64,000 bases of DNA, from contig NZ_LT699739.1 of assembly GCF_900155365.1 (NCBI RefSeq), positions 490,333 to 554,332 of the forward strand. The letters are read 5' to 3'. Below, piece by piece: positions 34,366 to 38,142 of this stretch (position 1 is its first letter; each line of letters begins with the position of its first letter). The notes under the pieces are model-generated. The model had not been told where the DNA came from. It saw nothing but the letters and a program-made list of their open reading frames with translations, and did no database searches. Both the position numbers and the translations under genes were made by a program. The stretch comes from Collinsella bouchesdurhonensis (GTDB taxonomy: Bacteria > Actinomycetota > Coriobacteriia > Coriobacteriales > Coriobacteriaceae).

Positions 34366-34401
34366 GTTTGATTACCGGCTAAATCGGCAATACTCCAAAA
34401 C

Positions 34402-35053
34402 GTTTTGCCTTTTGACCTGCTATTTTGCTGTTTGCGGCATCTCGCGCATATAGGAACCTCGCAATACCTCGCCGCTCTTCTCGTCGCTTGACGGAGCGAA
34501 TGCCGCAGCCGCATGATGCAGCTGCCAACCGGGTCAACCGGACGGCGGGAACCTCGATAACCGGATAGCGCAGAGAAAAGCGGCACGCAAAGTGCTCCCA
34601 TCGAGACAAGGGCAGCGATGACTCAACGATATGAACGGAGGTCCAGACATGGACGTTACGCAAATCATCGAACTGTTGGTGCTCATAATCGCGGCTATCG
34701 AACTCGGCCACTGAATCGGTAAGGATATCGGGCACCGAAAGAAATAGCCGCTCCCCGCACGACGCGGAAAACGGCCACCCTCCAACCTCGAAAGCTGAAA
34801 ACGAGCCGGCCACCCGCTAGCACCGGGTAACCGCCCTTGTCTCGATGGTAGCACTCAGCACGAAGACTACCAGCTAGAACAACGGCCTAAACAGAAAGGA
34901 AAAGACCATAATCGAGTATAGCACAACGAGCTGCATCAACACGATCAGTATCAGAGAGCTAGGACCAGACGAGCCGGCGAGAACGCTCTTTGGCATGACT
35001 TACGACGTGCAGCTCACGACTTCAGGTCGCAACTGCGGAATTGGGCGTTTCTG
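34402..35053. other. CRISPR insert 1 (652 bp), degraded phage-like cassette
   Basis: Between the two degenerate repeats. From about 34625 to 34920 it is homologous to insert 3 but decayed: the small membrane ORF is cut by a stop and the downstream ORF lost its start (ATA for ATG near 34911). The first 220 bp show no recognisable gene. Confidence 0.7.
34649..34714 (+). pseudogene. Truncated copy of the 32-residue membrane peptide gene
   Basis: Reads MDVTQIIELLVLIIAAIELGH and then TGA, where the intact copy at 35894 has Tyr-Arg. After the stop the frame still reads IGKDIGHRKK, so a base change created the stop. The ribosome site GGAGG is preserved. Confidence 0.65.
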
Positions 35054-35259
35054 GTTTGCTTACCGGCTAGATCGGCACTGCTCCAAAACATAGACGCATG
35101 GTCGCGCACCGGTCACGCGCTAGCCGAGCGCGGCATGTACGGCGCGCTCGCGGTCGCTCAGGTGCCAGCGCTCTGCGGCGGCACGCTCTGCGGCGGCGGC
35201 ACGCTGCATGAGAAAGGCCACACCCCCGCGCGGCCTTTTACGCTCTCGTTCTGTCGTCT

Positions 35260-35478
35260 CTAGGGCTGCGGCTCGGTATCGGGCCTGAAGTGGTCGCACG
35301 ACGCGCCGTCGAAAAGGATGGCGCGCGGCTTCCCCGTGCTCTCCCCGCGTCGGTAGATGAGGCAGTACGCCTTATCCGGGGCGTTCTCGAACGGTGCCGG
35401 CCCGTGCGCGAACAGGCACCCTTGGCACGCCTTGCAGTCGGCAGGCCTACCGCCCATCTGTTCCCCCGGATGAATCAT
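35260..35478 (-). CDS. Small cysteine-rich phage-type protein
   Basis: A 72-residue protein with CKACQGC near residue 20, a later single Cys in AYCLIYRRGE, and CDHF near the end, alternating with KPRAILFDG. This Cys-spaced small protein pattern is frequent in prophages and conjugative elements of Firmicutes and Actinobacteria, and is probably zinc-binding. The ATG at 35478 has a strong AAGGAGG site. It lies 10 bp after the stop of a gene fragment that is itself truncated by a CRISPR repeat. Function unknown. Confidence 0.6.
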   Translation of the reverse strand: MIHPGEQMGGRPADCKACQGCLFAHGPAPFENAPDKAYCLIYRRGESTGKPRAILFDGASCDHFRPDTEPQP

Positions 35479-35488
35479 GTCAGCCTCC

Positions 35489-35561
35489 TTAGGCCATTCG
35501 CTTCTTCGGTCCGGTCCATTCGTCAGGGTCCTGCTGGAACAGGTCATAGCCAGCCTCGGGA
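35489..35561 (-). pseudogene. C-terminal fragment of a phage-like gene cut by a CRISPR repeat
   Basis: The last codons read GYDLFQQDPDEWTGPKKRMA and stop at 35489. Upstream in this frame the sequence runs directly into the repeat at 35562, so the rest of the gene is missing. The peptide resembles the tail of phage-encoded proteins, perhaps a DNA methylase, but it is too short to name. Confidence 0.5.
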
Positions 35562-35859
35562 GTTTGATTACCAGCTAGATCGGCACTGCTCCAAAACAGG
35601 GCGTGAGGGCGTGCCAGAGAGCAATCGTTTGATTACCAGTTAGATCGGCACTGCTCCAAAACCGCTTCCGCTGCTCGACCACGACTACCGTCGTTTGATT
35701 ACCAGTTAGATCGGCACTGCTCCAAAACGGGAGGTAGAGAATGGCTATCGCGAACGGGTTTGATTACCAGTTAGATCGGCACTGCTCCAAAACATCGGGG
35801 GAGGCGCGCGATGACGGAGGCCAGTTTGATTACCAGTTAGATCGGCACTGCTCCAAAAC

Positions 35860-36282
35860 AGCCGACTCGACGACATGAACGGAGGTCCAGAACATGGACG
35901 TTACGGAAACAATCGCACTGTTGGCGCTCATAATCGCAGCTATCGAACTCGGCTACCGAATCGGTAAGGATATCGGACGCCGAAAGAAATAGCCGCCCCC
36001 GAGAAACGGAAACGGCCACTCCCCAACCTGAAAAGTTGTAAACGAGTCGGCCACCCGCGGCAACGGGTAACCGCCCTTGTCTCGATGGTAGCACTCAACC
36101 AAACACGATTGCTACCAGCTAGAACAACGGTCTAACAGAAAGGAAAGACCATGACCGAGTATACCACCGACAGCCATCTCAACGCAAACTGCATCCGCAT
36201 CGCCGAGGAGATTGAAGCCCACGCAAACGGCAGGGCATACACCGACGATAACGGAGACGTCGTTATCCTTGACGGCGACGAT
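35860..36282. other. CRISPR insert 3 (423 bp), intact two-gene cassette
   Basis: Flanked by repeats at 35824 and 36283. It holds two small plus-strand genes separated by a 160-bp stretch with the words TGTCTCGATGGTAGCACTCA and TGCTACCAGCTAGAACAACG. Most of it is repeated in decayed form in insert 1. Confidence 0.75.
35894..35992 (+). CDS. 32-residue putative membrane peptide inside CRISPR array
   Basis: MDVTETIALLALIIAAIELG is followed by YRIGKDIGRRKK: one hydrophobic helix and a basic tail, with GGAGG 8 bases upstream of ATG. The helix length and positive-inside tail fit a small single-pass inner-membrane peptide such as those of phages (holin-like or superinfection modulators) or type I toxins. 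It is too short for homology. A decayed paralogue in insert 1 with the same ribosome site supports it being a real gene. Confidence 0.55.
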   Translation: MDVTETIALLALIIAAIELGYRIGKDIGRRKK

Positions 36283-36288
36283 GTTTGA
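36151..36288 (+). CDS. 45-residue acidic protein whose stop codon lies in a CRISPR repeat
   Basis: Begins MTEYTTDSHLNANCIRIAEE and ends VVILDGDDV. The last Val codon and TGA are the first six bases of the repeat at 36283, so the original gene probably continued and was truncated. AAAGGAAAG lies 6 bases upstream of the ATG. Small acidic proteins of this kind are common in phage early or accessory regions. It follows the membrane peptide gene by 158 bp. Confidence 0.5.
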   Translation: MTEYTTDSHLNANCIRIAEEIEAHANGRAYTDDNGDVVILDGDDV

Positions 36289-36383
36289 TTACCAGTTAGA
36301 TCGGCACTGCTCCAAAACGTTGCCTACTCATACCGCCTGCCCCTCCAGTTTGATTACCAGTTAGATCGGCACTGCTCCAAAAC

Positions 36384-36609
36384 TGATTTGCGGGAAGGCC
36401 TTCAAATCGCCCATATCATTCGAATAGGCCGTCTGTCCGCCGAAATTGTCTAGCTCTTCTTGAGCTGTCTCCGCGATTTTGTACCATTGGCAGAGCAGCG
36501 AGAGCGCGGGCACATCAGACTGCGAAAACGCGCGTCCTTGCGTCAGCTCGTCCCATTTAGCGGATTTGAACGCATCCGATTCGATGCCAGGGGGCTTTGT
36601 GATGGGCAT
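36384..36609 (-). pseudogene. Phage terminase small subunit (P27 family), 5' fragment
   Basis: About 75 phage-derived residues: MPITKPPGIESDAFKSAKWD, then LTQGRAFSQSDVPALSLLCQ and WYKIAETAQEELDNFGGQTA, ending DLKAFPQIS. This matches the N-terminal half of P27-type small terminases (the LLCxWY helix and the G....N...K.P.I block). The family normally continues with a helix ending in LGLxP, about 50 more residues. Here the frame runs into the CRISPR repeat, which encodes FGAVPI and a stop. The cut is exactly at the repeat edge. Confidence 0.78.
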
Positions 36610-36770
36610 GCGATCACATCCAATCGGTAATAAAAAAAGCTGACCCGAAGGACGGCTAGAAATTTCTTACGTTTTTGCAGAGTCAGAAATCGCGCATTCA
36701 CTGGTCATTTCAAAAATCCCACCATGGCGGTTGGCTTGAGCTTGCCCGGAATTGCTTTTTGGCGATTTCG

Positions 36771-37130
36771 CTACTCGATGAACTTCTCGACATAGCGGCG
36801 AACGATCGTCTCGCAGATGTCTTTTAGAAGCGGATAAGGCATGTCAACGCCAGCAGCCTTGAGGGTGTGAATGCATATACGCCAAACATCGGGCTGCTCA
36901 ATCATCCGCAGGAAATCGGCGCCGCCATCCGTAAGCCCGTGAACCGAACCGCCTAGGCATATATCGCCGTTGAACTCTAGCGAACTGGAAATAAGCCCCT
37001 CGCGCTTCATGCGTTTAAGTTCATCAACCACGGTGGAGCGATCAATGAAACCAGAGAACTCATCGAACGGCAGCTCATTGCTTTTGGAGATGAATGTGAG
37101 CAATGAGCGCATTGTTTCGTAATCACGCAT
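36771..37130 (-). CDS. DUF2513-like protein
   Basis: A 119-residue protein. Residues 1-60 look like a winged helix (MRSLLTFISKSNELPFDEFS...VVDELKRMKREGLISSS), then SVHGLTDGGADFLRMIEQPDVW, and a tail helix AAGVDMPYPLLKDICETIVRRYV. The LTxxGxxFLxxIxxxxVW block and the tail fit DUF2513, often carried by phages and islands. A regulatory or immunity role is inference. It follows the YrhB-like gene by 2 bp, so they are co-transcribed. Confidence 0.6.
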   Translation of the reverse strand: MRDYETMRSLLTFISKSNELPFDEFSGFIDRSTVVDELKRMKREGLISSSLEFNGDICLGGSVHGLTDGGADFLRMIEQPDVWRICIHTLKAAGVDMPYPLLKDICETIVRRYVEKFIE

Positions 37131-37132
37131 GG

Positions 37133-37411
37133 CTAATCACCGTCAAATTGCTCAATAGGGATTTCTGTAAATTTGCCATCTAGGCTCATTTTGTAATCGT
37201 GAAGCTCATCACCGATTTCATCAAGAACGGCAGCGAAATTCAATGCGCTGCCATCGCTCTTCATGACAGCACACGGCCCATTCCCACCAATGCTCATGTC
37301 ATCATATTTACTGAAAACAAATGCATTCTCATACTCAGTGCAAAAGTCGAAAAAAGATTTATCGCTCATCTTGCTAAGCGCTATATCTCTTGCAGCGTTG
37401 ATATCAATCAT
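37133..37411 (-). CDS. YrhB-like small protein, possible immunity protein
   Basis: A 92-residue protein with NAFVFSKYDDMSIGGNGPCA and VMKSDGSALNFAAVLDEIGD. The pattern of an aromatic strand, a G(G)NGP loop, a V-x-K-x-D/T-G turn and a trailing acidic helix is that of YrhB-domain proteins, several of which act as immunity proteins in polymorphic toxin systems. There is no toxin next to it. AAAGGAG lies 7 bases before the ATG. Confidence 0.5.
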   Translation of the reverse strand: MIDINAARDIALSKMSDKSFFDFCTEYENAFVFSKYDDMSIGGNGPCAVMKSDGSALNFAAVLDEIGDELHDYKMSLDGKFTEIPIEQFDGD

Positions 37412-37614
37412 GGAGCACTCCTTTAGTATTTGCGTGAAGTAACGGAATCTTTCGCTCTATCAGATATCCGCAGGTTATCCGTCCTTACGATGTTCACGCT
37501 TCCCGGCTTCGCTCTTTTCTGAATCTGTTTGATTACCAGTTAGATCGGCACTGCTTCAAAACCATTGGAACAAATTCCCCACTGCGAGAGGGACGGCCGA
37601 TCCAACCGAATTAG

Positions 37615-37913
37615 CTATTTATGCTCCAAAAACCGCAGGTCAATAGCCATTTTTTGCTCATGTTCATACGAGCTGTTATCATGCTTATTTTCCAATAAAA
37701 GCACTTTTAATTTCAAGAAAAATATATGCTCATAGAGCTGTTCAAGCTCATTTTTCGTCAAAAAGATTTCGAATTTACGAAGTAGCGCCCACACCCTGAC
37801 TTCAACGAAGCAGCCACACGCGCAAACAAAGCGCCATTTTCAATCTCGAAGACCGACGTCTCCCCCGCCTCTACCTCCAACGGATACTCGAAACCAGAAA
37901 ATACCAATCTCAT
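37615..37913 (-). pseudogene. csn2: csn2 remnant (type II-A adaptation protein) with internal deletion
   Basis: The frame starts MRLVFSGFEYPLEVEAGETS and breaks after about 50 residues at KSF-stop. A shifted frame then reads FEIFLTKNELEQLYEHIFFL, KLKVLLLENKHDNSSYEHEQ and ends FLEHK at 37615. These are the N-terminal strands and the C-terminal helix/LLLEN block of Csn2. The total is 299 bp against the usual 660 or so, so roughly the middle half is deleted. The ATG overlaps the cas2 stop (ATGA), the normal cas2-csn2 arrangement. Confidence 0.75.
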
Positions 37914-38142
37914 AGAATAAGAAGCTCTTCCATCGTATCAACCTCATCGTAAGCTTCGCGATTGCCCGTTATATATTCCATTGTCGCAAACTGCGACTCC
38001 ATGACGCGCAAAACCTGAACTAAGCCAGAAGGCGGACGGTGCTTCCTCAGACGTCGAACAGCATTTCCCGCCGCACCATCGTTTACAACGAGTTTTGCGT
38101 AAACTGATTCCTGCAACCCTACCTATAAGCGGTTTTATCGCC
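37910..38142 (-). pseudogene. cas2: cas2 remnant
   Basis: The readable part, LQESVYAKLVVN...RRLRKHRPPSGLVQVLRVMESQ, FATMEYITGN and a DTMEELLIL end, is the C-terminal two thirds of a type II Cas2. Just upstream a different frame gives GDKTAYR followed by a stop, matching the conserved xDKxAYRxF of Cas2. The segment between (about 10-12 residues) and the first beta strand with the metal-site aspartate are missing. The gene is therefore dead. No cas1 or cas9 lies upstream; the next sequence is a terminator of another operon. Confidence 0.8.

Follow-up and report, generated by a model that had tools for sequence, protein, structure and literature searches.

The 64,000-nucleotide stretch of DNA analysed here (the window), from the gut bacterium Collinsella bouchesdurhonensis, carries what remains of a type II-A CRISPR-Cas locus that has lost cas9 and cas1, and whose array is a patchwork of normal spacers and long segments that include phage DNA. 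Like a type II-A locus (cas9-cas1-cas2-csn2), the window array has 36-nt repeats, 29-30-nt spacers, a leader, and csn2 and cas2 remnants; it differs in the absence of cas9 and cas1 and in that four of its nine intervals measure 423-1143 bp. For a phage fragment to abut repeats on both sides, either exchange must have occurred inside spacers or the fragment must have been taken up as one unit. The most likely route, we infer, is an exchange at two spacers derived from the same phage, to which we assign a probability of roughly 0.48.

The repeat occurs in ten copies from 34366 to 37562, and five of the nine intervals between them are of normal length (29-30 nt). From the leader (37563..37614, between csn2 and the first repeat, and similar to the leader of the relative G020), the array runs through the leader-proximal repeat (37527..37562, one mismatch), the 1143-bp segment D (36384..37526), a repeat with the exact 36-nt consensus (36348..36383; GTTTTGGAGC... 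in the transcribed direction), a normal 29-nt spacer (36319..36347) and another exact repeat (36283..36318). It continues with the 423-bp segment C (35860..36282), which holds a gene for a small hydrophobic peptide and another orf, this one entering the repeat, and with four normal spacers (29, 30, 29 and 30 nt) accompanied by four exact repeats (35598..35859). A repeat with one mismatch (35562..35597), the 472-bp segment B (35090..35561), with a frame still open on reaching the right edge, a repeat with three mismatches (35054..35089), the 652-bp segment A (34402..35053) and a trailer-end repeat with five mismatches (34366..34401) complete it. Leader, repeats and normal spacers lie on the minus strand. 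The element of segment C recurs in decayed form in segment A (86% over 311 bp). The element common to both (34580-34910 and 35860-36135) encodes a 32-amino-acid hydrophobic peptide, closes with a strong RNA structure (fold z of -4.15 for the segment A element) and resembles a type I toxin-antitoxin module; relatives of 90-150 bp are dispersed through many Collinsella genomes. An Rfam scan of the window gave no result.

Beside the leader, on the minus strand, lies a csn2 remnant (37615..37913) that retains residues 1-43 and 161-226 of 226, its middle deleted, followed by a cas2 remnant (37910..38116, minus strand) comprising the C-terminal part, residues 44-111 of 111. Models of cas9 and cas1 found no match in the window's own genome. 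The sister locus in G020 is intact, with the order array-leader-csn2-cas2-cas1-cas9 and 85 repeats, nearly all of which are one base off the window repeat. In another relative, G016, the cas-less array (L129:9888-10110) leads directly into an intact-looking tracrRNA, and its last repeat-like unit consists of 28 nt of repeat followed by an antirepeat tail as in relatives. A single recombination event joining a repeat to the tracrRNA antirepeat would remove leader, csn2, cas2, cas1 and cas9 together.

Phage DNA meets the array at the trailer-side edge of segment D. An open minus-strand frame at 36361-36609 (MPITKPPGIESDAFKSAKWDEL...) is stop-free up to the repeat and continues for seven codons inside it. 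Outside the repeat, the frame (36384..36609, minus strand) holds codons 1-75 of a terminase small subunit gene (terS), which we take to be P27-type, compared with about 126 residues in an intact relative. Its match to Pfam Terminase_4 is weak (E 0.006, 17.3 bits against a curated cut-off of 24.7), as expected for a truncated gene, and the PHROG terminase small subunit family matches at E 2e-4. At the level of sequence, direct homology is decisive for this assignment: prophage terS proteins from Coriobacteriia share 62-73% identity over residues 1-75 or 3-75 of the fragment, and those of 10 IMG/VR contigs 43-59%. A search of phage records with the terS protein gave no result. Prophage DNA identity starts at segment D base 2 or 3 in G001, G010, G045 (two places) and G338, and the break therefore lies at the repeat; identity to L081-L083 likewise touches the repeat, and these are probably the same records as some of the four genomes' matches. 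Because intact relatives extend about 50 residues past the break, terS does not naturally end there, and we rejected a natural end at codon 75.

The original prediction had this terS frame truncated flush at the repeat and phage identity unbroken up to it. The frame, the prophage homology and the exact consensus repeat bear out the former and the matches from base 2-3 the latter; its caveat that homologous terminases might end naturally at this residue falls away, since they run on. Its picture of a spacer beside flanking phage DNA captured the flush phage edge and left unexplained what it had not remarked on, namely the repeat at 37527 that bounds the phage DNA's other side and the three further long inter-repeat intervals. 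Elsewhere, we noticed several loci in which terS, with its leader, breaks off after about 25-37 codons and unrelated sequence follows (L084:8001-8134, L085:8001, L213:1607, L217:1569 and L208:9136); satellites with a phage packaging site would have this appearance.

The remainder of segment D points to the same source. Leader-proximal to terS, and also on the minus strand, are a DUF2513 gene (36771..37130; Pfam E 3e-5, below the cut-off, and PHROG 585 E 1.5e-6) and a small orf (37133..37411), giving the order orf, DUF2513, terS. These genes are pairwise neighbours in other phage-like contigs: a DUF2513 relative lies directly before terS in the IMG/VR contig L071 and another precedes a terS start in L035, and in L214 (genome G380) a relative of the orf (67% over 42 amino acids) is found some 260 bp ahead of a terS match. 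Judged by this gene order, segment D looks like a single piece of a phage packaging region. Its right edge was reached by no homolog, and a class-wide search of 396 genomes gave no closer phage. At the DNA level the window segments had no match among phage and plasmid records, and an IMG/VR search with DUF2513, the segment B orf, an orf from G016 and a helicase from G056 gave no result. A mobile-element remnant in G020 carries a DUF2513 relative and, further on, the first 32 terS codons, which enter a sequence that by eye resembles a tRNA 3' end; ARAGORN found no tRNA at this junction. The sequence at L035 (G020) is also present in L084, from Collinsella sp. WCA1-178-WT-3.

Long segments recur in the family. 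Among the 65 genomes examined, we counted 23 in 8 genomes, including the window's four. Single segments occupy the trailer end of the arrays in G020 (2235 bp), G056 (1980 bp) and G062 (813 bp); G030 has one of 1760 bp and G026 one of 411 bp whose left 'repeat' is doubtful (12 mismatches). G059 contains six (117-1455 bp) and G016 eight (178-547 bp), the latter alternating with 29-30-nt spacers between identical repeats. Many have frames that enter the repeats, and their phage genes include a scaffold gene, HK97-gp10-like and YjcQ genes, a helicase-like C-terminal part and a transcriptional regulator (by PHROG), presumably RinA-like. The G020 segment is collinear with the phage contigs L203 and L202: on the right the alignments extend to its final base and on the left to base 9, and the phage genes carry on past these points. 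Contiguous phage DNA thus meets an array junction at the left edge of segment D and, within 8 nt, at both edges of the G020 segment. For this G020 segment we rejected a simple insertion into a spacer, because its edges have at most 8 nt that are not phage-like compared with the roughly 30 expected from a split spacer. Two G016 segments (L129:8773-9288 and L129:9457-9887) encode related papain-fold Gln_amidase-type C-terminal domains (Pfam E 3e-7 for the first), which are probably phage-borne. Separately, a lone repeat joined to the same 370-380 bp (92-95% identical) is found in G023, G018 and G030 (L130:3389-3801, L096:8583-8997 and L033:8235-8640), a junction that is a fossil kept in three species.

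Long segments are associated with the absence of cas9. Among genomes with the repeat family, cas9 was found in G020, G022 (with one internal stop), G024, G042, G044, G056 and G062 (on a different contig from the array), and was not found in G000, G016, G018, G023, G026, G030, G032 and G059. Long intervals make up 20 of 32 in cas9-less arrays versus 3 of 205 in cas9-carrying arrays, and all three of the latter lie at the trailer end. Fisher's test gives 6e-18 when intervals are treated as independent, which overstates the association because intervals within one array are not. Counted by genome, among those with two or more repeats, 5 of 5 without cas9 have a long segment versus 3 of 7 with it. 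These interval counts omit G018, G023 and G032, each with a single repeat-like match, as well as the 6,125 bp that separate the G056 array from its tracrRNA antirepeat; they use seven repeats for G059 (six at up to 10 mismatches, seven at up to 12-13), and count as normal two intervals that run up to the antirepeat hybrid (G016) and to an end with 11 mismatches (G062).

In the intact G020 array, four spacers match sites in two prophages almost perfectly (28-29 matches); the 3' flanks of these sites are cGAAA, gcGAAA, aGAAA and tGAAg, from which we derive the PAM N(N)GAA. The same array holds pairs of spacers against single phages, namely two against the G005 prophage, two against that of G030 and two against that of G001. 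Within the genus, terS is indeed a CRISPR target, as originally predicted: G020 spacer 69 matches terS about 22 nt beyond the segment D cut. The accompanying proposal that the last 30 bp before the repeat are a spacer found no such backing, as none of the 211 normal-length spacers of the examined arrays matches the window segments; nor did any of the arrays searched still hold both edge 30-mers as spacers. Likewise, the PAM looked for on the missing side of the terS edge did not appear among the 12 terS homologs examined, which at that outer place read NGAC in 7 and NGAA in none. On the inside, GAA follows the leader-proximal 29-30 nt in 3 of 23 segments (A, D and that of G056; expected 0.7, P 0.03) and, within a wider window chosen after looking, in 6 of 23 (P 0.001); GAA at the opposite edge is not significant. 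Two G016 spacers with near matches have the 3' flanks ctgcc and ctcgc, without GAA, and the PAM test may therefore not apply to G016.

These observations can be accommodated by an exchange in which a pair of earlier spacers from one phage would supply homology arms of 30 bp each. If DNA of a related phage enters a cell no longer able to cut it, exchange at both arms, through the host RecA or a short-arm phage single-strand annealing protein, would replace the array between the two spacers with the phage DNA between the two protospacers. Phage annealing recombinases need just short arms. Each edge would then fall at a spacer end, flush with a repeat, and repetition with different phages would leave short spacers interspersed with phage fragments. 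The terS identity up to base 2-3, the pairwise gene neighbours, the collinearity of the G020 segment, the excess in cas9-less arrays, the multiple spacers per phage and the spacer-phage recombination reported in Staphylococcus speak for this route. The exchange also predicts a PAM inside the segment after the leader-proximal 29-30 nt, for which the evidence is weak: GAA in 3 of 23 segments lends support short of proof, most edges have none, and 20 of 23 segments are without GAA at the strict inner place. The NGAC reading outside the terS edge, the finding that no searched array retains both edge 30-mers as spacers and the unmatched right edge of segment D also speak against the exchange. Two features of G016 further count against it. 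All eight segments there measure 178-547 bp, which would require many close spacer pairs, and two of them have one common phage edge in opposite orientation.

In a different origin, the adaptation machinery itself would sometimes have joined 0.1-2.2 kb phage fragments, in place of 30 bp, between duplicated repeats, perhaps through a failing ruler in a dying system. Every long segment is bounded by repeats at both ends, as a unit would be; in G016 long and normal units alternate between identical repeats, and the two segments start at one phage base in opposite orientation; and the inner PAM is absent at most edges. Yet active arrays with cas1 and cas9 contain 202 normal intervals and long ones at the trailer end only, and the long units of G016 are not clustered at the leader end. 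Moreover, type II-A adaptation needs Cas9. We therefore regard this origin as doubtful, and the broader idea that type II-A systems or their dying forms store such fragments as giant units, whether as long-memory adaptation or by a failed ruler, as slightly more so. A phage integrated by a single crossover at one spacer, its insert later trimmed by deletions or repeat recombination, would ask for just one matching spacer and could account for the inner PAM at some leader-proximal edges. After such an event the two edges would carry identical 30-nt stretches, which is seen in no segment, and deletions would not repeatedly stop at repeat borders, making this origin rather improbable.

Remnants of prophages that integrated into CRISPR repeats would also be repeat-bounded, and there is precedent in the prophages of Streptococcus pyogenes CRISPR loci (Varble 2021, as cited in PMC10359306). 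As presented in that citing paper, the S. pyogenes case shares with ours repeat-bounded phage DNA in a type II-A array and differs in that prophages sit in direct repeats, whereas the Collinsella inserts are fragments of 0.1-2.2 kb with varied internal edge genes. The segments break off in a variety of genes (terS, scaffold, minor head protein, helicase, RinA-like), none of the segment proteins scanned was recognised as an integrase, and the searched repeat pattern occurred in 0 of 2.9 million IMG/VR contigs, which speaks against a repeat-like attP. With no constant phage ends, we rejected integrase action as the general cause, and consider it very unlikely for the segments at hand. The same null result led us to reject solitary repeats carried by phages. 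Misassembly, in which short reads joined phage contigs to identical spacers, might be suspected in that the window genome (1.88 Mb) is a 15-contig draft. Against this, the same anatomy appears in the one-contig G056 and deep within a 1.7-Mb contig of the three-contig G016, segment D has no second copy in its own genome, and segment A bears decay mutations relative to C. We judge an assembly artefact to be the most unlikely origin of all.

The two-spacer exchange has a close parallel in Staphylococcus, where recombination between spacers and their phage targets has been reported (Varble 2019, as cited in PMC8616872 and PMC10434264). By these citing accounts, spacer-target homology serves there as the crossover site, the same as we propose; the outcome differs, in that CRISPR and adjacent genes leave on phages in Staphylococcus, whereas in Collinsella phage fragments stay behind, closed by repeats on both sides. 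Because recombination of spacers with phages is already known, as are prophages within CRISPR repeats, the patchwork array is a variant of a familiar kind. Our literature search on Collinsella type II-A arrays, long spacers, orphan arrays and spacer-protospacer recombination, which covered few subscription papers, found no patchwork array.

Under either exchange or capture as giant units, array finders built on regular spacing will overlook or break up such loci. If giant spacers were the explanation, the fixed-length ruler of adaptation would not be absolute, and arrays would be in part a gene-sized phage archive. If instead spacers serve as homology arms after the loss of Cas9, spacer pairs against one phage should predict which fragments enter. 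The Collinsella array suggests that old immune memories can become sites at which phage DNA is spliced into the chromosome. Losing cas9 would then carry a cost and open a route for phage genes into chromosomes, with an array that once kept out the phages it recorded now letting them in.
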